DNA of 50,436 nt from Methanobrevibacter sp. (GTDB lineage Archaea > Methanobacteriota > Methanobacteria > Methanobacteriales > Methanobacteriaceae). Shown here one piece after another: positions 6,666 to 24,103 of the stretch (the stretch's first letter is position 1; every line of letters starts with the position of its first letter). Made by a program: the position numbers and the translations under genes. The stretch is from the NCBI GenBank assembly GCA_016838945.1, contig JADLKP010000002.1, forward strand, positions 1 through 50,436, written 5' to 3'. The notes below the pieces were generated by a model. That model was not told the origin of the DNA. It did no database searches and saw only the letters and a program-made list of their open reading frames with translations.

Positions 6666-7332
6666 CTAAATGTACATCTGCATATAGATTATAATTGCAG
6701 GCAGAATCAAGACTCCCATCAAATGGGACTTGCTGACCCCCAAATAATGTGGAAGCAAACCCATTGCAGTGGTTGTAATCAAAGCAAGAGTGAGATACAA
6801 TATTGGCCCTTCGTAGATAATCGCAAAGGCATATAAAATCACTATCATTAGAATGATTACCGCAATCGAAAGCTTCCTATAGTCTATTCCCTGCATGAGA
6901 TTTGAAAATCCATCACCTAATTTCAAACAGATCATCAATGATATTGAAACTGCAATTAAAGAAGCAAAAGTGAATATCATCAAATGGGCTAAAGTGAATT
7001 CGGCAATCAGGTAAGACATATATACAGCAATTCCGCTCCTTGGATTACCAATCAAATAAATTGCTATGAGTGAGAAGAGAGTGTCTGAAGTATTCAATCC
7101 ACTGTTAGCCAAGAGAAAATTCTTGGTGTCATCACTATCATCACTTGTTCCGCATGCTCCCTGTGCTATGATGCTTCCTTGGGCAGGACCGAATCCGGGT
7201 AAAAATCCTAAGATAGCTCCTGCAGTTCCCCCTGCGAATATGCTTTTCACCGCATCCATATCAATGTCCAAATCATAGAACCTGTTTTGATGAGGAATTG
7301 AGGAGCTATCATTCAAACTAAATAAAATTGTA
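6666..7332 (-). pseudogene. C-terminal half of TctA/DUF112-family membrane protein, separated from its N-terminal half by the provirus
   Basis: GGTAGAILGFLPGFGPAQGS and multiple TM segments; joins in frame with the 46.2-46.8 kb fragment at the 11-bp core. Confidence 0.88.
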
Positions 7333-8392: not shown

Positions 8393-9505
8393 TCATCCTT
8401 TCTTAATTATTCCAAGTGCAGGCTGTCCTCCTGTAGTATGCTTTGCAAAATAGGACTGAACACTGAATTTTCTATCTTGCAAATGTCCAGGATAACTTCC
8501 ATCCTTTTTAATTTTACCTAAACTATTAAGGGCCCTTACATATTTGGTTTTAATATTGATGATGTCAATATACTCATAATGGCCTATAAAATCATCATCA
8601 ATTTCCTCACCTGCACCGCTATAAGCAATATGCCATATTACAGCAGTGTTAGGGTCTTCCAATAATTTTCCTATTTTTTCAAATCTTTCCTCATCAGTTT
8701 TACCCATGTCTGAAAAATTAACCCATTTGATGGTTAATTTAATCCCTGTAAGCTTGCTGATTTTTGCTATCGCAGTATTGATTCCCTGATGACTTGTTCC
8801 TTTACTTGTGCTGCCGGCAAATTTTGCTATTTCCTTTTCACTGAATTTGGTTATGCCAAATTTCTTTAGTGCCTGGCGTGTAGTATGTGGACCACAAAGA
8901 GATTTTGTGCATTGGCCTAATTTGTTACATCCTAAAGTGAGGTAATGTGGTTGTGAAACAAACCTAATTTTTTTAGATATTGCTGCTTTTTTACTGGTTG
9001 ATGTAGATTTCTTATTGTCTTTTTTTGAAGTTTCCTTACTGGTTTGTTTTACTGCAACATATCCCTTGTTAAAATTGCAATAGTTGGGCAACTTGCCATT
9101 TTTATTTAGGAACACTATAATTTTAGACAAGCAATATAGGAACAGCTCAAATGATACCTTAATCTGAAGGCTAGGCACAGTCACAAACCTTGGCACCCTA
9201 TGATATTTCCTGCAAAAATTTAGGAAATTGTCAATCATGATCATGTAATCCTTCTTGACAACATCAACATTCTTGATAGTGTCAGCATAAGCTTTATCAG
9301 GATGGTAGATTATGACATTCATCAAATCATAACTTGAATGTTTCATCTTATCCTGAATCATTGTTGAAAATAGGTATGCTATGCTATACGGTGAAATGGT
9401 TTCACCAGTGCTAAGTGTGCATGCTCGGGGTATTTTCTTGTTTTTTTCCATGTAGGTTTTGATTTGTTCTGCTTCGAGGATTAATGCTTTTTTATCGTAT
9501 TTCAT
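8393..9505 (-). CDS. Pseudomurein endoisopeptidase (peptidase C71, PeiP/PeiW/PeiR type) with N-terminal pseudomurein-binding repeats
   Basis: KSLCGPHTTRQALKKFG (Cys), GHYEYIDIINI (His), ALNSLG; PMBR-like segments IKTYMEKNKKIPRACTLSTGETISPYSIAYLFS. Confidence 0.85.
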   Translation of the reverse strand: MKYDKKALILEAEQIKTYMEKNKKIPRACTLSTGETISPYSIAYLFSTMIQDKMKHSSYDLMNVIIYHPDKAYADTIKNVDVVKKDYMIMIDNFLNFCRKYHRVPRFVTVPSLQIKVSFELFLYCLSKIIVFLNKNGKLPNYCNFNKGYVAVKQTSKETSKKDNKKSTSTSKKAAISKKIRFVSQPHYLTLGCNKLGQCTKSLCGPHTTRQALKKFGITKFSEKEIAKFAGSTSKGTSHQGINTAIAKISKLTGIKLTIKWVNFSDMGKTDEERFEKIGKLLEDPNTAVIWHIAYSGAGEEIDDDFIGHYEYIDIINIKTKYVRALNSLGKIKKDGSYPGHLQDRKFSVQSYFAKHTTGGQPALGIIKKG

Positions 9506-10392: not shown

Positions 10393-11097
10393 TTGGGTTC
10401 TTTAAGCACCTGTATAACGAATAATAACGGATTGGCTAGTGTAACAGTAAATAATGTTATTGCAGATACAACATTTACCGCCTCTTACCAATCTGCAAGT
10501 GCAACCTGTACAGTTACCGTTCAAACTGGTCCATTGTTCTTTGATGACTGTTCTACTGATAGAAGTAGTGAATACACAAAAGTGAACAATTACTGCACAT
10601 TCAGTTATAACAGCAATGGTTACTATGTCTTGACAAAATCAAGCAGTAATGGTACAAGTGGAATTAAAATCATTAATACTCAATTCCCAAAAAATGTGAA
10701 GATAACAGTAGACATACAAATGAAGTCAACTGGTAACTTGCAACCTAAACTGGTCTTTATGGATACAACCCAAACCTACGGATATGTAAGCAGATTAACC
10801 TGTATCAACGGTAAAGCCAGTATCATAAATGGTAGTTTCACAGGAGAAGGAAACAGTATCACTGGTGACATAACTATATCGCAAAGCACTAATACTTGGT
10901 ACACTTTTGAATTTATCAAGAACAATAATGATTTGACATTCAACATCTACAATACAGCTAATGGTACATTGATTAAATCCCTAACTGGTACTGGCAGTCA
11001 AACATTCTCTGATAATGCAAATACTGTAGGATTAGCAGTCAGTTATGACTCTTCAAAATACTTTTGGTTTAAAAACTTGAAAGTAGAAGCTTTATAA
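10393..11097 (+). CDS. Silent tail-fibre C-terminal cassette 2
   Basis: STCITNNNGLASVTV...LKVEAL, homologous to the C-terminus of the opposing gene; follows the stop of cassette 1 directly. Confidence 0.75.
   Translation: MGSLSTCITNNNGLASVTVNNVIADTTFTASYQSASATCTVTVQTGPLFFDDCSTDRSSEYTKVNNYCTFSYNSNGYYVLTKSSSNGTSGIKIINTQFPKNVKITVDIQMKSTGNLQPKLVFMDTTQTYGYVSRLTCINGKASIINGSFTGEGNSITGDITISQSTNTWYTFEFIKNNNDLTFNIYNTANGTLIKSLTGTGSQTFSDNANTVGLAVSYDSSKYFWFKNLKVEAL
10398..10421. repeat. Recombination site B of the invertible fibre locus
   Basis: TTCTTTAAGC-ACCT-GTATAACGAA; right arm identical to site A, spacer is the reverse complement of site A's + strand spacer. Confidence 0.75.
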
Positions 11098-12090
11098 TGC
11101 TTCTACTTTTATGTCTTTGACGTAATATTTGGATACATTCCACCATAATATAGTGATTCCTGGTTTTGTGTCGGATTGTATTGCTTTGGTTGGTGTGATT
11201 GCAGAACCGGAGTAAAGAGTGTTGTCATTTGCGTCTTTGATTGAATAGGTTACTTTCCCATTTGTGACTGTTGCTATATGTGTTAACCATTCGTTACGAT
11301 GATTGGTACCGATATTAGATTGAATACTGTCACTTCCGCCTTGGTTTATGGTAATGTTACCTCCATCGCTTCCACCAGTATAGTGCATATAGTAGATACT
11401 GTACATTCCGTTGCTTCCTTTGTAAGCATAACCTGTACCTCCACGGTCTGTAGTATTGTAATGCTTTGTCTTAAAACTCATAACATAACTGTTTTCACCT
11501 GCAAGACTGCCTATTGCCATCATACTCTGTCCACCACTTGCAGAACCATTGTTCGCGAGTATGTAGCAACTATTAGAGGAGTCAAAAGTGAGAGAGGGAT
11601 TTGTACTGCCCCTTAAAGTCAATACACTATAATTGCTTGTATTATCCACAGCACAGTCATCATAGAATAAGTAACTGCTTACTGTTACTATACAAGTATC
11701 AGATGCATTGGAGTAATTACAAGTGAATGTGGTTTCAGATGAAACAGAAACAGTCACAGTAACTATCCCTTCGTTGTTCGTTATACAGGTGTATAACGAA
11801 GAGTCAGACCCAGTCACAGTAACAGTTGCCCCACTCTTCGGAGCATAGTTTTCTTGTAATGTTATTTCTAGTGTTGCTGTTCCACCAACAGCAACATACG
11901 AATCCTCACTAAACTCGATATGGTAACAACTGCCACCACCAGTCTGAATATTACTTATTTCACCAATCAAACCCAGTAATCCAGTAGAAGAGTCATAACT
12001 TGCAGTAACTCCTTTCTGCCCCAACTCATAAATCAACTGGTCTTTCATCTCCAAAAGAGAACCATTAAGTGTACTTGTATCATTCGGCAT
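11092..12090 (-). CDS. Tail fibre/adhesin: N-terminal region plus Ig-like (Big-type) domain plus currently expressed exchangeable C-terminal domain
   Basis: ENYAPKSGATVTVTGSDSSLYTCITNNEGIVTVTV Ig-like; SYLFYDDC...IKVEAL C-terminus shared with two inverted cassettes. Confidence 0.75.
   Translation of the reverse strand: MPNDTSTLNGSLLEMKDQLIYELGQKGVTASYDSSTGLLGLIGEISNIQTGGGSCYHIEFSEDSYVAVGGTATLEITLQENYAPKSGATVTVTGSDSSLYTCITNNEGIVTVTVSVSSETTFTCNYSNASDTCIVTVSSYLFYDDCAVDNTSNYSVLTLRGSTNPSLTFDSSNSCYILANNGSASGGQSMMAIGSLAGENSYVMSFKTKHYNTTDRGGTGYAYKGSNGMYSIYYMHYTGGSDGGNITINQGGSDSIQSNIGTNHRNEWLTHIATVTNGKVTYSIKDANDNTLYSGSAITPTKAIQSDTKPGITILWWNVSKYYVKDIKVEAL
11777..11800. repeat. Recombination site A (expression-locus site)
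   Basis: TTCGTTATAC-AGGT-GTATAACGAA, perfect 10-bp arms and 4-bp spacer. Confidence 0.8.
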
Positions 12091-12591
12091 TTATGAACCA
12101 CTTCCATTAATATACAATATTGCATCACCAACCAAACCATCAACATACTCTTTCACAAGTTTCTCACTTGGCACTTTACTATCCGAAGTTGTAGCAGACC
12201 AACTTGAAACAATAGTAACAGTCGCATCACTACCATTAGTAACAGTAAAAGTAGTAGTGCTACCATTCGTAAAAGTAATAGTATAAGTATCAACCAAACC
12301 ACTTGATCCAGTCTTGGTAACAGAAGATATGCCATTACCAGTATCACCAGTATCACCTTTATCACCTTTCGCTCCATCAGACCCATCTTCACCATCAGTC
12401 ACTTGAAAATCAAAAGTGTCTCCATTGGTGAAAGTGATTCTATAGGTCTTAACCTTCCCAACAGTGCTTCTTAGTACAATGCTTTGAATACCGTTACCAG
12501 TTGCACCAGTATCCCCCTTGTCACCTTTTGGTCCAGCATCACCTACAACTTGTCCTAAATCAAAATCTTGGCCTCCATCAGCCATTATCAT
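12091..12591 (-). CDS. Collagen-like (Gly-X-Y) tail fibre protein
   Basis: GDAGPKGDKGDTGATG and GAKGDKGDTGDTG repeats alternating with TYTITFTNGSTTTFTVTNG units. Confidence 0.75.
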   Translation of the reverse strand: MIMADGGQDFDLGQVVGDAGPKGDKGDTGATGNGIQSIVLRSTVGKVKTYRITFTNGDTFDFQVTDGEDGSDGAKGDKGDTGDTGNGISSVTKTGSSGLVDTYTITFTNGSTTTFTVTNGSDATVTIVSSWSATTSDSKVPSEKLVKEYVDGLVGDAILYINGSGS

Positions 12592-13100
12592 TTACCTCCT
12601 ATTTGTGGATTTGTTGAATAAATCAAATGTCCTTGCTCGTTGATATGGTAAGGATTCAATGTTCCTGTCGGCAATGTTACAATCAAATGCCCCTCATCAT
12701 TTATCCTGAAGCTGCCTACCATCACCACACCAGAGCCTCCACTTCCCCCTCCTTCGATTGTTATGTTACCGCTTCCAAGCAGGGATTGGTGGTTTATTGT
12801 TTTCAAGTTAGTACCACTAACCAGTAAGTCCTGTTTTGTGTCATCATGGACTGTTCTTCCGACAGCACCATAGCATACTACATCATAGATGCTGTTGTTC
12901 ATGAACCCTATCACAACAGTATCTCCTACTTGAAGTTTTGCACCATCAAGGATTGGGACATTTGTATGTTCCGTTTCCTCATCCGCTTCTTTTACGGTGC
13001 AGTAATGTTCTTGCAGTTTCGTGACTGTTGCATATTTTTCAACTGTGACAGTCACATTATCGTCTATTAAGACTTGCAGGTTATTGTATAAATCGGACAT
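12588..13100 (-). CDS. Baseplate/fibre-associated protein
   Basis: Position between fibre genes; GAKLQVGDTVVIGFMNNS OB-like segment; Gly-rich linker. Confidence 0.45.
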   Translation of the reverse strand: MSDLYNNLQVLIDDNVTVTVEKYATVTKLQEHYCTVKEADEETEHTNVPILDGAKLQVGDTVVIGFMNNSIYDVVCYGAVGRTVHDDTKQDLLVSGTNLKTINHQSLLGSGNITIEGGGSGGSGVVMVGSFRINDEGHLIVTLPTGTLNPYHINEQGHLIYSTNPQIGGK

Positions 13101-13139
13101 ATTGATCTCTCTTTATAATTTCTTGCTGAATAATTTCAT

Positions 13140-14285
13140 TCATACGCCCCATTCGACTTGCCCATGAACAGTCACATTGCTTTGTGTAGCACCAGTATTT
13201 GATTTCAACCAGATTGTCCCATCAGCACCAATCTGAATAATGATATTCGCACTATTTACGAAGTAAAAAGTGGATTTGATTGGGGCTATGTCTGATAAAG
13301 GATTACTGCTACCATACTGTCCAAAGGTTGTCGAGACAACATTTCTTACGAGACCATCCAGTATCAATCTGCCATGATTCCCATCCGTATAAGCAACAAT
13401 CTTATTAGACTCGGCAGACCATACCTTTTTCCAACCCCTGACGAAAATCTGAGTGGAACTTGTATTTGCTGAAAAAGTGACCAAACCCCAGTCATTGCAA
13501 GTAACAGACCATGAAGCAATTCCTTCGTTGTTCGTTATACTGCTGCTTACCGAAGTCCCGTTACGATACAATGTCAAACTCTTACCCTCAACAGCATCAC
13601 CATGAATATCAGTACACCTGCAAGACACAGTAATATTCGTATCAATAGTAGGATTATAGTCACTAGCATACAATTCATAGAAGAAAACACCATCATCAGC
13701 ATTCTCCAAAATACTCAACCTGCCATCAATAACACTCAAGCTACTAGCCAAACCAGTAACATTAGATTGTGCTATGCTCCCACTAACATCAGCACTGCTG
13801 GACTGGAACACAAAACTCAAGCCAGAGACAACAGCATTACGTGGGATAGTTACAACAATATCATACTCCTTCAACACCTTCAACTCAGGAACATTGCTCA
13901 AATCATCATAATTCAAGTTACTAGCTATAGGACTGGTTCCCCCCTTATTAGCAATGTAGAAACTGACCTGTCCTGTAGCGGTCAACTTGATTGATTTGAA
14001 ACCGCCGAAACGGTTGAAGTTAGGGTAAACGGTCAACCTGTACACTTGTGCGCTGGTGGTACGGTTGGTAATTGTTGAACCGATGCTTAGGTTGCTGTTC
14101 GGTGTAATGCTCACATCCGCCACCTTAGCCATGACCACATCACTACTGTTAGGGAAAACACCATCAGTATCAGTTGGCAAGGACACATCCAATGTCCAAG
14201 CGAAAGCATTGCCAACCAGTATTCCATCATTCAAATTCTCACTATACGCTTTATTGCTGTCATTGAAAAAATTATTAGCCATCAA
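13140..14285 (-). CDS. Tail fibre protein with Ig-like domain
   Basis: VSCRCTDIHGDAVEGKSLTLYRNGTSVSSSITNNEGIASWSV; shares the ITNNEG-coding recombination-like sequence. Confidence 0.6.
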   Translation of the reverse strand: MMANNFFNDSNKAYSENLNDGILVGNAFAWTLDVSLPTDTDGVFPNSSDVVMAKVADVSITPNSNLSIGSTITNRTTSAQVYRLTVYPNFNRFGGFKSIKLTATGQVSFYIANKGGTSPIASNLNYDDLSNVPELKVLKEYDIVVTIPRNAVVSGLSFVFQSSSADVSGSIAQSNVTGLASSLSVIDGRLSILENADDGVFFYELYASDYNPTIDTNITVSCRCTDIHGDAVEGKSLTLYRNGTSVSSSITNNEGIASWSVTCNDWGLVTFSANTSSTQIFVRGWKKVWSAESNKIVAYTDGNHGRLILDGLVRNVVSTTFGQYGSSNPLSDIAPIKSTFYFVNSANIIIQIGADGTIWLKSNTGATQSNVTVHGQVEWGV

Positions 14286-15329: not shown

Positions 15330-16688
15330 TTATGGGTTGTCTGATTTGCTTGGTGTAGTCACCAATCCACTTGCAGGGCCTGTATCTATCACATCAACAT
15401 CAGGGCTTACCTGGTAAACCTCATCTGTATCCATAGTGATAGGTTCAGTCACAATACCCCAAACTATGCTGCTGTCACTAGTCTTTGTTGCTTTTTGGTA
15501 GATTATTGCATCAGTCACTTCAGGTATCTCCTCGATAAGCACGCAAAGGTTAGCAGGATTGAAATCCTGATTGATGTTTGCATCAGCATTGAACTGACTA
15601 ATGACCTCCTCAACCTTAGGAGTAACAGTAGACAATGTGGCCTCAGGATACTCTGCAATGTCAATGTTAACATATACTTTGTACTCTATACTGTAACCAG
15701 TAATGCTAGTGTCCGCCAATACATATTGTGGTGTGGCCCTCTGATAACCAAGACTTATCCCTACGATGTTGTACTCATCCAATGCAAAGAATTGACGCAA
15801 TGCATACTCGCTAGGATAATATGTTCCAACGATACCGGCTTGACCTCCACTATATGATTCCTCAGTCTCATCCTTATCGATTGGATTGTAGATCAACAAC
15901 AAGTCTTCATCTGCACTTACACCTTCCTTGGAGGGGACTATGTCATGCACAAGGTTAACTACCCCTTCATCAACGAACGGAATGGTCTTGAACCAGTTTA
16001 TGCTTCCTGTAGGGGAATTGTTAGGATGGTCGATTATCCTTGCTCGGTAATCGTCATCTGATTCAATGTCTGTTCCGCCAGTGAAGGTGGTGTTGGTGAC
16101 CCTGACTCCAGCAGGCAATTCGTTCTCAATTATTATGATGGTGTCATCCAGGACATTGGTGTATTCTCCTTCGTACTCGCAAGTCGCTTCCAACCTGATG
16201 TACTTGTTACCGTTCAAGTTTGAATCCGCATCATCAACGATAAAGCTTATGCTGTCATCGGTCATCACTACAAGGTCCTCAAGTATGACCGGCTCTTCCA
16301 AGTCACAGATTGTACCTGCATCCTGATTCAATATCTCATCTGCAGTCAAAGCTGTGCTGTTGTAATATATGATGACATAACCCGTACTAGGGCTTGCAGG
16401 TTTACGGTAGATTCCAAGACTGTCCCCAGTATTATCCAAGAATTCTCCTTCCTGGGTGTGTATCATGCTCATCAAGTAATTGTCATTGATGTCCTCGCGC
16501 ACTTCAAGGAACAAACTTGCAATTGTATCCAATAGGTGGTAAGCCTCGCTCCCTTCGGTGAAATCTGTCACCTTAGTCAAACCATTATAATAAGCCTGGT
16601 CATACTTGCTCTTCAAGTAATCTATAACATCATCCTTCTCTAATGTTGTTCCGTCGAACAACTCCAAATATTCTGTTTCCTGCACCAT
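15330..16688 (-). CDS. Baseplate J-like protein
   Basis: GTDIESDDDYRARIIDHPNNSPTGSINWFKTI, typical gpJ/XkdT sequence. Confidence 0.85.
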   Translation of the reverse strand: MVQETEYLELFDGTTLEKDDVIDYLKSKYDQAYYNGLTKVTDFTEGSEAYHLLDTIASLFLEVREDINDNYLMSMIHTQEGEFLDNTGDSLGIYRKPASPSTGYVIIYYNSTALTADEILNQDAGTICDLEEPVILEDLVVMTDDSISFIVDDADSNLNGNKYIRLEATCEYEGEYTNVLDDTIIIIENELPAGVRVTNTTFTGGTDIESDDDYRARIIDHPNNSPTGSINWFKTIPFVDEGVVNLVHDIVPSKEGVSADEDLLLIYNPIDKDETEESYSGGQAGIVGTYYPSEYALRQFFALDEYNIVGISLGYQRATPQYVLADTSITGYSIEYKVYVNIDIAEYPEATLSTVTPKVEEVISQFNADANINQDFNPANLCVLIEEIPEVTDAIIYQKATKTSDSSIVWGIVTEPITMDTDEVYQVSPDVDVIDTGPASGLVTTPSKSDNP

Positions 16689-16695
16689 TTTATCA

Positions 16696-17082
16696 TTATC
16701 CTAAAGTGTTAATCCTTTCCTCGAATCCTATTTCGCTTCCATCCACAAGCTGCAAATGAAGAGCAATGACTAAAACATCATGCTCCACGGGGGTTATTTC
16801 AAGGTTAAGGATACTGTACACCCTTGGCTCCTCCAACATGCAATTCTCAACATAAACCCTTAACTCGCTAATCCGTGATTGGTTTCTCTTCTCCCCAAGT
16901 ACTTGATAGACTTCGCTCCCATAATCAGTATCAATGTTAGGGTATGTTCCAATCCTTGTCAGTAACCGGTTCCTTATGGCCTGCTCTGCATTCGCTAATT
17001 CAGTGACCAAGCCCAAGTCACCATTACTGGTAATGAAACCATCACTGCTGTAATCGGTTCCGTATATTTCAGTATCAGTCAT
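16696..17082 (-). CDS. gp25/XkdS-like baseplate wedge protein
   Basis: ANAEQAIRNRLLTRIGTYPNIDTDYGSEVYQVLG. Confidence 0.75.
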   Translation of the reverse strand: MTDTEIYGTDYSSDGFITSNGDLGLVTELANAEQAIRNRLLTRIGTYPNIDTDYGSEVYQVLGEKRNQSRISELRVYVENCMLEEPRVYSILNLEITPVEHDVLVIALHLQLVDGSEIGFEERINTLG

Positions 17083-18212
17083 TTTGTCACCGCCACAATT
17101 TTAGATCCATCAACCTCTTGCTTCATGTTCTGACTCACATCGTAAGTCTTGCCCTTATACTTGTTGTACATATGGTATCTTTTGACCCCATCAAGGCCTG
17201 TGTATTCCGCCTTGATTATGTCCACTTTCTTGTTTGCACCTTTGCACATTATGAAGAACAGCCATGAAGCATCTACACAATTGTATACTTTGTTTTTCCA
17301 GCATTTCTCCACACTCTTTTTCCCAAGGCTTGTTTCCTTTTCGGAGCTGACCTTATGGCCAATATAATACTTGTACTTGAAGCCACCGGTTCCTCCTGCA
17401 CTTTTGACCTTAAGGTATTTGTATATCTTAGCAACAGTACCTAATTCCTTGCCCTTGAGCATAATCTTTTTGATTGTTGCGGATTGCTCGTTGAATCCTC
17501 CAATGTTTGGATTTATGCTTGTTGGCTTCCCTTTTAATGGGTTCTTCTTGTTGCGGTTTGTTGCAACGATTGCCCCTTTCTTGTTGGTGATTATGTAATC
17601 CCCATCGTAAGGGTCTCCCAATACTTGAGAGCCTTTGACAAGGTCAAGGCTTAATGTTTGGCTGTCAATGTCAAGGTTCATTGACTCAACGGTTAGAGTC
17701 TTGTTGTTGATGTCCTTGAACCTTTTGCCATCATCATAACCCTTGAAATTCAAGCTTAAAAGGTCATCTACCTTAACCTGTAAGTATGCAGGTATCTCGA
17801 GTTTACCTGCATAAGTGGTTCCTGTATTGATTAGGCTTTTTGCCTTTGTCTTTGACTCTGCCTTTGACAAGTTACATTTCTGACTTTGGGTTTCTGTAGC
17901 TGCAGTAGTCTTAGAACCTGTAACTGTAGCTGGTTTCAATTTACCCCTTACCTTTGTGGCCTTGTCGAGTCCTGATGATCCGCAGTAGTCTGCGTCACAT
18001 TTTTTACAGGTTATTTCACCTTCAGGGGTTTTCTTGGGATTGAATGTCAATGTACCCTTTGACTTGCAAAGGGGGCAGTAATTCTTCCATGTGTGCTTTG
18101 TGAGTTTGTACTCATAACCTTTCTTGGATGGATATGTCTTTACGGTGATGGTGTTGTTGTCTTTGCTTACTTGTTTAACTCCTTTCAAAACCATATTATC
18201 ACCATTTAACAA
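17079..18212 (-). CDS. Tail hub protein (XkdQ/late-control-like) with zinc-ribbon pairs and C-terminal cysteine-protease/transglutaminase-like domain
   Basis: YCPLCKSKG...ITCKKCDADYCG; NCVDASWLFFIMC / KRYHMYNKYKGKTYDVS Cys-His-Asp order. Confidence 0.6.
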   Translation of the reverse strand: MLNGDNMVLKGVKQVSKDNNTITVKTYPSKKGYEYKLTKHTWKNYCPLCKSKGTLTFNPKKTPEGEITCKKCDADYCGSSGLDKATKVRGKLKPATVTGSKTTAATETQSQKCNLSKAESKTKAKSLINTGTTYAGKLEIPAYLQVKVDDLLSLNFKGYDDGKRFKDINNKTLTVESMNLDIDSQTLSLDLVKGSQVLGDPYDGDYIITNKKGAIVATNRNKKNPLKGKPTSINPNIGGFNEQSATIKKIMLKGKELGTVAKIYKYLKVKSAGGTGGFKYKYYIGHKVSSEKETSLGKKSVEKCWKNKVYNCVDASWLFFIMCKGANKKVDIIKAEYTGLDGVKRYHMYNKYKGKTYDVSQNMKQEVDGSKIVAVTK

Positions 18213-19402
18213 TTGAAAGTATTAGGGTTACTATAGTATGCTAGGTGTCCACCATTCATTGCATGATTACCCCATCCTTTGCTAGTTGTTGTATCGGTTG
18301 CAAACCATTTACTATTCAGTTTGGTTTCTGGATAGAAGTGTCCTTTTATATGGTTGCATCTTACTTGTAATCCTACACTTCCTGCAAGGCTCATATAAAG
18401 GTGGGTTTGGTCTGCACAATTGCCATTCCTCTTATTCAAGGTGCCTAATGCTCCCTTCTTCGTACAAGCATAATTGCTATACTTGATGTTATTTCGCATC
18501 CATTTCCATATAGCCTTAGCCTTAGCATTATCTGTCTTGGCAGAACCTATGATTGAATTGGCTTGCTTGACAATCTTAGTATTGATGTTGTACTTGTTGA
18601 TGAAAGCTTGACCATCACTATTAGTATCAGAAGATGAGGAATTATTGCTTCCGCCTTTGGTGACATTCTCAGTACAATCAAAAGCGTCTCCTTCAATGTA
18701 ACCCCAAGTGGCTATCATCTCCTTTGAAGCCTTAGCTGTTGCCTTTGTTGCACCATTATAGACCACTCTTCCTACAGTAACAACATCATCGGTTGTTAAT
18801 GTTTCCTCGTAATCTATGATCATGTTGGTTCCGTCGCCTTGTGTGCTGAACTTGTAGCCTTGTTCAGTGTTGATGCTCTTTCCGAAATGAAGTATCCCAT
18901 CTATATCGACATAACATTCAACTGGGTTTCCGGCTTTCCATTCAAGATACTGCAATTGCCTGGCAATTTCCCATATAGATTTCTTCTCCCATTTAAGATA
19001 AGTGTGTTTGTTTGTGGTTTTAGTGAGTCCTGCAAGGCTGAAGTTATTCGGGTCATTCTTCAACAACTTCTTCAGTAAGTTGTAACTGGTTATGTTGCTG
19101 TAGCTGACACTGCCAATCTTGCCCATATACAATCGGAGGTAGCTTACGCAATCATACTCGTACAAGCCATTTGTAGTTTCATGGACCTTGTAGATTTGCC
19201 CTCCGAAACCATACCTTTTTCCACGGGGGTCATTGTACCTTACCCTTGTTCCTTGAGGCAAGCGTTCGTTGGTTCTGAAGCTGAATGCATCTGCAGAATC
19301 GGATTTGTACTCTATCTTGGAATTGTTGAACGGTACAGCATGGAAGTTGGTCTGTGACAGTTTGGCGGTGTTGCTTACGTATAATGTTCCAACGCTCATC
19401 AT
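18206..19402 (-). CDS. Tail hub protein with C-terminal transglutaminase-like domain
   Basis: AKAIWKWMRNNIKYSNY, NGNCADQTHLYMSLAGSVGLQVRCNHIKGHFYPE, KWFATDTTTS (Cys-His-Asp). Confidence 0.75.
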   Translation of the reverse strand: MMSVGTLYVSNTAKLSQTNFHAVPFNNSKIEYKSDSADAFSFRTNERLPQGTRVRYNDPRGKRYGFGGQIYKVHETTNGLYEYDCVSYLRLYMGKIGSVSYSNITSYNLLKKLLKNDPNNFSLAGLTKTTNKHTYLKWEKKSIWEIARQLQYLEWKAGNPVECYVDIDGILHFGKSINTEQGYKFSTQGDGTNMIIDYEETLTTDDVVTVGRVVYNGATKATAKASKEMIATWGYIEGDAFDCTENVTKGGSNNSSSSDTNSDGQAFINKYNINTKIVKQANSIIGSAKTDNAKAKAIWKWMRNNIKYSNYACTKKGALGTLNKRNGNCADQTHLYMSLAGSVGLQVRCNHIKGHFYPETKLNSKWFATDTTTSKGWGNHAMNGGHLAYYSNPNTFNC

Positions 19403-19405
19403 TCA

Positions 19406-20134
19406 TCACTTCTTCTTTGAGGTTATATTGTACTTCTTGCGCCAATAATCACGAGTAACCTTATCCCATTGGCCTTGATTGGCTTTGGAGACTTTTATCT
19501 TGTAGACCTTCTGAAGCTTATTGACTTCCTGCTTGGTGTACTTCAAGTAATCCCCATCAATCTTATAGCCTTTGTAGTATCCTTTCTTCTGCAGGAACTT
19601 CTGCAGGTATTTGACGCATTTCTTATTTGTCATACCATACTTCATTGTACCGCAATCAGTCAAGAGTATTGTGATGTAACTGCTTGTCTTTTTAGCAGTG
19701 GTCTTTTTAGCCTTTGTGGTTGTGGTTTTCTTCGTTGCAGATTGACCTATACGCTTGAAAGTGACATTAACAATATTCGGCTTCACATACTCGGTAAACT
19801 CCCAATTGATAAGGTAAGAACCATTAAGCTTTTTCTCTTCCTTATAATCATTCAAGTAGTAATTGCCATTGACTTGAAGGTCTGAAGGCCCTACCAATAC
19901 ACCAGCCTTATTGGTGTAAGTCTTCGCAAGGTTACGATAAGCAGAGAGTATATCTAATTCATCCTTGCTTACAACACTACTGAAAGACAATACTGTACCA
20001 TTGGTGGAAAGGTACTCAACACTATTCCCACCAGTAGAGCCGATGAAAGTATTAACAGAATAATTCCTATCCTTAACCTTATTGATTGAGTCAAGAATAT
20101 ACTGTATCTTGACCCCTGCAAATTTCACTTCCAC
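19406..20134 (-). CDS. Tail protein with C-terminal peptidoglycan-binding-like domain
   Basis: KCVKYLQKFLQKKGYYKGYKIDGDYLKYTKQEVNKLQKVYKI; Lys/Thr-rich linker KKTTTTKAKKTTAKK. Confidence 0.6.
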   Translation of the reverse strand: MEVKFAGVKIQYILDSINKVKDRNYSVNTFIGSTGGNSVEYLSTNGTVLSFSSVVSKDELDILSAYRNLAKTYTNKAGVLVGPSDLQVNGNYYLNDYKEEKKLNGSYLINWEFTEYVKPNIVNVTFKRIGQSATKKTTTTKAKKTTAKKTSSYITILLTDCGTMKYGMTNKKCVKYLQKFLQKKGYYKGYKIDGDYLKYTKQEVNKLQKVYKIKVSKANQGQWDKVTRDYWRKKYNITSKKK

Positions 20135-20136
20135 TA

Positions 20137-21960
20137 TTATTCAACTCCTCGTAGCACATTTTGTTTATAGATCTCATCACTAAGTTTCCTTACAATGAAG
20201 TCACCAGCGGACTCTTCAATGATGCCGTTCATTATGATGTTAGGTCTTCCGCCAGTTGCATTGCTGATGTTGCTTATCAAGTTAGTGTTTGCGCTTCCTA
20301 TACCGTTGACGCTTCCCATGCTGATGCCTGCACTTCCAGTGGTTATTCCAGCACTTCCACCTATTCCCATCAGCATATCCCAAGCTGCCTTGATGTTGTC
20401 AATGATAGGTTTCAAAGTGTTATAGGCACTTTGGAACGGAGCGGTTATAGCATGAGTTACACCATTGAAAGCACCTTGTATAGTTCCTCTGACTCCTTGG
20501 AATGCTGCTCCTATCATATTGGCTATTGCTCTTGCCTTTGCTGTGGCCTGGTTCCAATTGTTCATAGCTGCGGATATGATGCTCCATATCGCTGAGAATG
20601 AAGCGGATATTCTACCGACAAGCCAAGCACCAACTGCCGCTATTGCATTCACTAATCCTGACAATGCCCCACTAATGAACGAGTACAGTTGCTGGCCGAA
20701 CGTTACTATGCTTGCCCAGGCGTTGTTTACCATAGCACGGAACCAGTCAACATTCTGGTAAGCCCATATGAGCGCAGCAGCCAAAGCTATTAATGCAATC
20801 ACAACAAGTATGATAGGGTTCATGGCGAGTACAGCATTCCACGCCATTGTTGCGGCTTCAGCTAAAGTTATCTCTCCAGTTAATACTCCAACTATAGTTC
20901 CATATGCAGCAGTAGCTGCACTTAGTACTGCTTCAGATGCAGCTGATAATTTAGACACTATATCCAATTCCCTAAGGTAGGATACTATACCTACATCTTT
21001 GATTGCTTTCATACCAGTTGCCATTTGGCCAAGCCCAGAGATAGTGTCTATGATAGGACCTCCTGCAACTGAACCTGCTACAATACCCATACCTACAAGG
21101 CCACCAGTAGCATCGTTTAATTGGAGGATGTAATCCATTGCTCCTTTCTCTGCACCCAACCACATTGAACTTAGTGCGTCTTGGGAATTATAGAGCATAC
21201 CTTCCCATTCAGCTTGCTTGTTAAGCATAGTGTCCTGGTTAGCAATACCACCATAACCTAAGTCATTGAGGACTTCTTGCATAGCCTTCTGCCTTTCCAT
21301 AAAGGTGTTCGCTTCTTTCAATTTGTCCACTTGACTGGATACGATAGAACCCCTTTCCAGTTCGGCAGTATTCCCATCCAAGAGATATTTCATGATGTCC
21401 TGTTGGGATTCGGTTGCCATCTTTCCCATGGTAGCGGAACCTGCCATATAGTCCGCCATTGTCTCTGTAGCGGCTCTCATCTCATTTGGCTTCAAGTCAT
21501 TCCCAAGTGCTTGAGCGGTAGAGAGTACTGACCTCATTGTGTTGTCATCACCAGGCATACTGGCCACAATATCAGATATGTCTTGGTAGGTTTGTTTGGC
21601 TTTGTCTGCTCCAAGGTTCATCTCAAGGAATGCTTTGTTCTGTTCTGATTGCATTCCTGCTTGTTCCACTTCTTGGATAGCATTCTTCAAGTCAAGCACA
21701 CCTTGCTTGGCTTTGCCTACCCCATCACTAAGGTTTTGCATTGCCTGTTGCACCGCAGATTCATCAACATCAATAACGAATTCCGCACTGCCATTAAGGC
21801 CTTCCTCCTTTTCACCGGCGGAGTCTAATTCATCATCATCAACAGCAACTTCAACCCCAACCACCTTATCGGCGAGACTGTCCAATAACTCTTCCAATGC
21901 CTTGGCCTGGTCATCATCAACATCAGCAGCCACTTTAAGTTTAACTTGTTTTTCAGCCAT
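20137..21960 (-). CDS. Tail tape measure protein
   Basis: 607 aa, alpha-helical with a long hydrophobic central region; sits between the chaperone and hub genes. Confidence 0.85.
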   Translation of the reverse strand: MAEKQVKLKVAADVDDDQAKALEELLDSLADKVVGVEVAVDDDELDSAGEKEEGLNGSAEFVIDVDESAVQQAMQNLSDGVGKAKQGVLDLKNAIQEVEQAGMQSEQNKAFLEMNLGADKAKQTYQDISDIVASMPGDDNTMRSVLSTAQALGNDLKPNEMRAATETMADYMAGSATMGKMATESQQDIMKYLLDGNTAELERGSIVSSQVDKLKEANTFMERQKAMQEVLNDLGYGGIANQDTMLNKQAEWEGMLYNSQDALSSMWLGAEKGAMDYILQLNDATGGLVGMGIVAGSVAGGPIIDTISGLGQMATGMKAIKDVGIVSYLRELDIVSKLSAASEAVLSAATAAYGTIVGVLTGEITLAEAATMAWNAVLAMNPIILVVIALIALAAALIWAYQNVDWFRAMVNNAWASIVTFGQQLYSFISGALSGLVNAIAAVGAWLVGRISASFSAIWSIISAAMNNWNQATAKARAIANMIGAAFQGVRGTIQGAFNGVTHAITAPFQSAYNTLKPIIDNIKAAWDMLMGIGGSAGITTGSAGISMGSVNGIGSANTNLISNISNATGGRPNIIMNGIIEESAGDFIVRKLSDEIYKQNVLRGVE

Positions 21961-23023: not shown

Positions 23024-24103
23024 TTAGATTACATCGTAGGTTACGTTCGCATCGATTTCAGTTACTACACCATCGAATACGATTTCCTCAATGTTAGCTC
23101 TTACACAATCTCTGTTCACCTTTTCAACACTGTACTTGATGTCCTCTACAAGGCCGAGAGTGTCAATGCATTCATGTTTAACTCTTGCGAGTCTTTGCTC
23201 GATAGCATCCAAAGTTATAGCATTGTTCTTCTCACCAAGGAAATCTTCAAGGTTGAACAAGTTGATTATGTAATTGATAGTTCTTTCCATGTACAAGTCC
23301 AAGTGTACAGTAGCTCCATCGGTAGCAGTGACAACATGAGGTAACCTGCTGTTAACGATAACGAAAGTCTTTTCTGCACGGTTCAAACATTTAGCAACAG
23401 GAATACCTGCTTCAACAAGTTTGTAACCCATGTCAGAGGATTGTGCAAAGGTCATTTCAGCATTGACTGCTTCAACACCACCAAGGACTTTCATAGTGAA
23501 GCTTGCATCAACTCTACGTTCACATACAAGTCCGCAGTAGTATGCTGCAGATTGTGCTACAGACAATTCAGTATTGTTGACAGTGAATTGTTGACAGATT
23601 AAACCGAAACAACCTCCATCTGCAAAGATAGCAGCAGTGGTAACATAATCAGCTGCAGCAGACCTGGTGACTGGAGCGATTAATCCTACAGGATGGGATG
23701 ATTCAAACCTATCATCAATATAGGATTTAATGCTTGCAAGGTTAGTGTCAGTTAAAACGTAAGGTATCAATAAGATATCGTAATTCTCTTCAAGGCTGGT
23801 AGCAGCAGTAACAATCTCTGCACCAGTAGGGCTACCTGCGGTAGATGGGCTAATGTCTACAATAATCACATCAGTAGCACCACCACGGAATAAAGGTTCA
23901 AGGCATTGATCCCCAACTGGTGAACTGCTGGTGATTGTGCCAGTGGTTGCTTCAGCTACTGCATTAGCATAAGTGTTTACACTTATAGGAGCAGATAATG
24001 ATTTACTGAACTCTGCTACAATTGCAACTTTACCTGCAATTCCTGGTGAACCTTTTGGGACATTGTCCACTTGTGTAACTGTAATTTTTGGTATAATTGC
24101 CAT
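23024..24103 (-). CDS. Contractile tail sheath protein
   Basis: PKGSPGIAGKVAIVAEF N-terminus; ERTINYIINLFNLEDFLGEKNNAITLDAIEQRLARVK C-terminal domain. Confidence 0.8.
   Translation of the reverse strand: MAIIPKITVTQVDNVPKGSPGIAGKVAIVAEFSKSLSAPISVNTYANAVAEATTGTITSSSPVGDQCLEPLFRGGATDVIIVDISPSTAGSPTGAEIVTAATSLEENYDILLIPYVLTDTNLASIKSYIDDRFESSHPVGLIAPVTRSAAADYVTTAAIFADGGCFGLICQQFTVNNTELSVAQSAAYYCGLVCERRVDASFTMKVLGGVEAVNAEMTFAQSSDMGYKLVEAGIPVAKCLNRAEKTFVIVNSRLPHVVTATDGATVHLDLYMERTINYIINLFNLEDFLGEKNNAITLDAIEQRLARVKHECIDTLGLVEDIKYSVEKVNRDCVRANIEEIVFDGVVTEIDANVTYDVI

Follow-up and report, generated by a model that had tools for sequence, protein, structure and literature searches.

Among the closest described counterparts of the proteins reported here are PeiW and PeiP, soluble lysins with pseudomurein-binding repeats (PMBRs) (PMC2989375, PMC6189367). 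On the cellular side, host surface proteins that combine PMBRs with a transglutaminase domain have been described as Group III adhesin-like proteins (PMC11532034). In our literature search, which left out a 2023 methanogen-virus compendium where an earlier mention is possible, we found only the soluble Pei enzymes (PeiW, PeiP and PeiR) and autolysis, and no account of the passage of tailed viruses through the pseudomurein wall; one paper (PMC12596118) set virion-associated lysins aside.

The window, the whole stretch of 50,436 nt that we analysed, comes from a Methanobrevibacter of the olleyae/ruminantium clade and is a provirus with a contractile tail; an FeGP-cofactor protein flanking the provirus shares 98% identity with its M. 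olleyae SIG14 counterpart. Its tail hub is probably a virion-associated pseudomurein lysin, with a cysteine peptidase of the transglutaminase-superfamily (TG) fold on part 1, and a zinc-ribbon plus a divergent TG/C71-fold cysteine peptidase on part 2. The relevant features are the following.

8393–9505, minus strand: soluble lysin, PMBR plus C39-type peptidase (PMBR; PDB 22oc; L058 relative)
15330–16688, minus strand: baseplate J (PF04865, 2e-18; PHROG 6)
16696–17082, minus strand: gp25-like sheath initiator (PF10934, 1.2e-10)
17079–18194, minus strand: hub part 2, zinc-ribbon, hub C-part and second Cys-His-Asp (TG/C71-superfamily) domain
17115–17504, minus strand: second peptidase-like domain of hub part 2, residues 231–360 (Foldseek PeiP 8z4f; hhalign)
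17139–17141, 17172–17174 and 17277–17279, minus strand: checked codons of D352, H341 and C306, the hub part 2 triad
17511–17903, minus strand: middle of hub part 2, hub C-terminal part as in single-chain YqbQ hubs (hhalign 97.3%, E 1.7e-11)
17925–18089, minus strand: four-Cys zinc-ribbon of hub part 2, residues ~36–90 (invariant C40, C43, C63 and C66)
18206–19399, minus strand: hub part 1, YqbQ/gp27-type hub N-part plus TG domain (PF01841, Foldseek, invariant triad)
18209–18616, minus strand: TG domain of hub part 1, residues 262–397
18293–18295, 18338–18340 and 18416–18418, minus strand: checked codons of D369, H354 and C328, the hub part 1 triad
18665–19399, minus strand: YqbQ/gp27-type N-part of hub part 1, residues 1–245
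19406–20134, minus strand: XkdP-position ring/baseplate protein, C-terminal PG_binding_1 at residues 174–216 (19487–19615; PF01471)
20137–21960, minus strand: tape-measure protein (PHROG 58 tail length tape measure, E 5e-22)

After the tape measure, the minus-strand genes ran in the order PG_binding_1 protein, hub part 1, hub part 2, gp25-like sheath initiator and baseplate J, which we take to be the PBSX-like contractile order xkdO-P-Q-R-S-T. Tail contraction is predicted from the presence of the sheath initiator and baseplate J, as the sheath candidate (23024–24103) had no family or PDB match. When both hub parts were compared with 50,697 phage records, Methanobacteriales viruses were the only matches. 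The initial annotation had described three consecutive tail-hub proteins at the tail tip. All three minus-strand ORFs were present as described, and the tail-tip position agrees with the hub fold and the place between tape measure and baseplate. The second and third genes are indeed hub genes, two pieces of one hub; the first, however, is a ring protein between the tape measure and the hub. This gene is kept between tape measure and hub in relatives, and a LysM ring protein fills the same slot in known contractile tails. The PG-binding-like domain that had been read at its end was recovered as PF01471 PG_binding_1 (24.9 bits; cut-off 23), and a relative in L186 scored 54.9 bits. By analogy with LysM in other contractile tails, the domain may be structural, serving ring or hub contact. 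The presumed tail-fibre genes downstream of baseplate J (11092–14285) gave matches to Ig-like, collagen-repeat-like and FctA-like sequences, all of them weak. An ORF at 6666–7316, towards the left side of the provirus, matched only the C-terminal half of TctA and may represent a host gene that has been broken or interrupted.

Hub part 1 probably starts at ATG 19399 (the ORF had been given as 18206–19402). The transglutaminase-like Cys-His-Asp domain attributed to its end matched PF01841 Transglut_core at 46.9 bits (E 3.7e-12), above the curated Pfam cut-off, and C328, H354 and D369 were invariant in a 15-row alignment reaching down to 40% identity. An AlphaFold2 model built from 15 sequences (mean pLDDT 70) had contractile-tail hubs among its top PDB hits in Foldseek searches, namely those of diffocin (8v3w), phiCD508, a Streptomyces injection system, Mu (gp44) and VgrG; the TG-type proteases 3isr, CPR-C4 and TglA were also hit, with 3isr among the top ones.

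For hub part 2, we place the start at ATG 18194 and not at TTG 18212 because relatives start there. Since its middle matches the C-part of YqbQ hubs, hub parts 1 and 2 are two pieces of one hub, of YqbQ/gp27 type by its fold and by its position between the tape measure and gp25/baseplate J; homologues matched PF24032 above cut-off. The same two ORFs occurred in 9–15 other contigs, which ruled out a frameshift or assembly error as the source of the split. The window's hub part 2 itself matched no Pfam family above cut-off, and a scan of the genome contigs with it as query returned no match. Two homologues (L099:802-1791 and L116:1250-2296) matched PF01841 above cut-off, at 33.4 and 26.7 bits. 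The second Cys-His-Asp domain and zinc-ribbon that the annotation had seen here were both backed by conservation: C306, H341 and D352, the four ribbon cysteines and residue Cys71 were all invariant in the 15-row alignment, and relatives with invariant triads and ribbon cysteines extended down to 40–49% identity. The triad keeps the Cys-His-Asp order of the superfamily, and in the model the cysteine lies at the start of a helix (306–319), with the histidine and aspartate on or after strands (338–346 and 349–351).

We searched the hub part 2 model against 350,542 PDB chains with Foldseek. PeiP (8z4f, two chains) ranked first with probability 0.99, and PeiW ranked sixth; the E-value of the PeiP match (0.018, with a TM-score by query of 0.22) was weak because two fifths of the model were poorly predicted (mean pLDDT 60.5, TG region ~60–87). 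Against a viral structure library, the best matches of hub part 2 included a ribbon protein of Drs3 and psiM2 PeiP; Foldseek also tied a 1403-aa Drs3 protein to hub part 2. A broadened hub part 2 TG profile compared by hhalign gave 97.8% to the host PMBR-linked TG domain, 94.4% to C71 and 94.9% to the hub part 1 TG domain, with unrelated controls below 1%; overall, TG profile comparisons reached 94–99.9% to PMBR-linked host TG and C71, with unrelated controls at or below 3%. We assign the C-terminal domain of hub part 2 as a second, very divergent TG-superfamily domain. Both TG domains are under strong purifying selection, with dN/dS of 0.07–0.09 in relative pairs where it was estimable.

A tree of 47 domains kept three clades apart: C71 (100/100), the hub part 2 type (100/99), and one that united the Drs3 lysin with the host PMBR-linked type (98/96). 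The two hub TG domains fell in separate clades and therefore neither is C71 nor did they arise by recent duplication, an origin that this separation ruled out. This supports the earlier suggestion of peptidase families not yet assigned to pseudomurein. The nearest neighbour of the window's hub part 1 group was the TG domain of the L103 siphovirus hub (97/88), and this grouping suggests that TG domains have been exchanged between tail types. L103 is a long siphovirus-type hub from the same genus.

We searched 120 Methanobacteriaceae genomes for YqbQ hubs and found 16 separate hub regions, spread over 14 genomes. One was interrupted by a contig end, and the 15 complete proviral modules from 13 other genomes were counted. 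In all of them (15/15), a TG domain could be recognised within the hub module, between tape measure and baseplate J. Layout A joins hub, ribbon and TG in a single chain (L178, L186 and L192); layout B divides the hub and places both ribbon and TG on part 2 (L177, L179, L181, L188 and L191); layout C divides the hub at another point and has its TG on part 1 (L180, L182–L185, L187 and L190, and also human-gut vir080). The window family, with TG on both hub parts, represents a fourth layout. Only one of the window's two domains, probably that of hub part 1, could be an active pseudomurein peptidase, with the hub part 2 domain and ribbon binding or structural. We regard this as possible though doubtful. 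The far greater divergence of the hub part 2 domain (no Pfam hit, a long branch) and the single TG domain of some relatives (L181, L186 and L192) speak for it, but the hub part 2 triad is invariant over 15 sequences under the low dN/dS given above, and in every layout B module the hub part 2 type is the only recognised TG domain.

Several modules held further domains. Another small Cys-His-Asp-like domain (CDCF...GTHRTV...D) lay in hub part 1 of L177:3466-4521, L179:4334-5365, L188:3787-4812 and L191:3793-4842 and in the vir249 hub DBA35475; profile comparison gave only 6–17%, which does not support assigning it to TG. Hub part 2 of the vir080 type (L025:9434-10741, L180:3366-4505 and L182:4221-5312) opens with an unassigned domain of ~170 residues, placed ahead of the YqbQ part, that may be a further wall-active domain. 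Very long ORFs at the tape-measure position gave weak TG-like matches (Drs3 MH674343.1 27599-27763, PhiF3 MN737622.1 22102-22356 and vir249 BK063678.1 18645-18884), which suggests that tape measures carry TG domains too.

Among TG-fold proteins are true transglutaminases as well as other proteases, and some may be inactive. The superfamily includes cross-linking enzymes, and one reading would make the hub domains either true transglutaminases or factors in virion assembly, with tail proteins being cross-linked or matured by them. This is very improbable: bacterial tails carry wall hydrolases at the same position, such as the NF5 tail-associated lysin 9m7n, which was itself among the structure matches of the hub part 1 model; the domain type varies between viruses, as expected of host-facing enzymes; and there was no sign of cross-linking. 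We consider it unlikely, though less so, that the domains are receptor-processing proteases acting on adhesin-like proteins of the host surface instead of on pseudomurein. Such large proteins are abundant on Methanobrevibacter surfaces (PMC2812497, PMC11532034), and ordinary proteases exist among TG-fold enzymes, as in the 3isr and CPR-C4 matches. By contrast, the closest host TG relatives are fused to pseudomurein-binding repeats (the adjoining PMBRs are also reported in PMC11532034), and the fold search with hub part 2 led to PeiP and PeiW.

The zinc-ribbon is widespread in Methanobacteriales and is covered by no Pfam model. At E≤1e-5, a profile of it matched 100 of 152 Methanobacteriota genomes, which belong to three families within a single order, against 0 of 80 genomes in a control order (that of a Methanospirillum); weaker matches in 14 of those 80 were short, at E 3.6e-5 or worse and ~25 bits or less, and we read them as generic ribbons. 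The ribbon was present in the MSTV1 hub and in small Drs3 and PhiF3 proteins with signal-like N-termini. In host protein L115 (L115:3402-7898) it lay between PMBR repeats and TG, and in L108 (L108:856-2694) it followed four PMBR repeats. These associations suggest a wall-binding role. Large host surface proteins with the ribbon also included L105:1806-3254 and L106:955-2586; across the four, it adjoined PMBR, Ig-like or TG domains.

The soluble lysin had been taken for a C71 endoisopeptidase, which did not hold: PF12386 (C71) had no match in the window's genome, and an L058 relative of the lysin matched PF03412 above cut-off, ruling out C71 in favour of PMBR plus a C39-type peptidase. The lysin matched PDB 22oc, 'P210 WT', at E 2.5e-51, apparently a recently solved relative. 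BLAST showed no real similarity to PeiR, so a close relationship to that enzyme was ruled out as well. The PMBR-bearing lysin candidate of Drs3 itself carries a TG domain; no C39 was found in the Drs3 virus.

Pseudomurein cross-links contain gamma-glutamyl and epsilon-lysyl linkages, the kind of bond on which TG-fold enzymes act. What the analysis shows is the order of the genes, the hub fold, membership of the superfamily, conservation of the triads, purifying selection and recurrence in related viruses; we infer catalysis by the hub, its substrate, its timing and the role of the ribbon. Most likely, the hub cleaves pseudomurein peptides locally during DNA entry. Judged by its fold, it would be located in the virion, and tail contraction would drive it onto the wall, where the zinc-ribbon may serve as the wall-recognition module. 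The two cysteine-peptidase domains would then open peptide or isopeptide bonds of pseudomurein locally, allowing the tube to reach the membrane and DNA to enter, and the separate C39-type lysin would free progeny later. We are evenly divided on a broader reading, in which viruses of pseudomurein-walled methanogens generally use a dedicated class of TG-fold peptidases, borne by the virion in an interchangeable hub slot, plus an undescribed pseudomurein-recognising ribbon that host surface proteins also carry. If this reading is true, each of the two hub domains represents a new family of pseudomurein peptidases, and the ribbon is a second pseudomurein-binding module besides PMBR. The ribbon points to an unrecognised, putatively wall-associated metal-binding domain in Methanobacteriales. 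A candidate wall-cutting hub in 15/15 complete modules and in phi-mru makes entry directly testable, and the hub domains offer candidate new enzymes for opening methanogen cells, for DNA extraction, transformation and rumen methane research.

Compared with known systems, the window hub resembles bacterial tail-associated lysins (gp27/gpD/YqbQ-type hub fusions) in hub fold, in its position between tape measure and baseplate and in its fused hydrolase-like domains. Unlike them, it has two different TG/C71-superfamily domains, a two-gene split and a zinc-ribbon, and it faces an archaeal pseudomurein wall. With PeiW and PeiP (MEROPS C71), the hub domains share the superfamily fold and Cys-His-Asp order, but they form separate clades and lack a PF12386 match, and PeiW and PeiP are soluble. 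Host PMBR-TG surface proteins are cellular relatives of the hub part 1 TG domain, some of them with the same zinc-ribbon, although they are cell-surface proteins and not virion parts. The remaining comparison is with phi-mru in M. ruminantium M1, which offers a cultivable test system. A published PeiR primer (PMC6189367) coincides exactly with the beginning of ORF L199:17038-17724. This ORF has a Peptidase_C39 match, and because of the primer's fit we identify genome G026 as M. ruminantium M1 or a near twin. Two genes before PeiR, the phi-mru hub (L199:12050-15355) carries a zinc-ribbon and a TG domain (PF01841, 24.2 bits). Like the window, phi-mru thus combines a hub with ribbon and TG with a C39-type lysin downstream; unlike the window, its hub is a long single chain of siphovirus type with one TG domain, and the two lysins are not close by BLAST.
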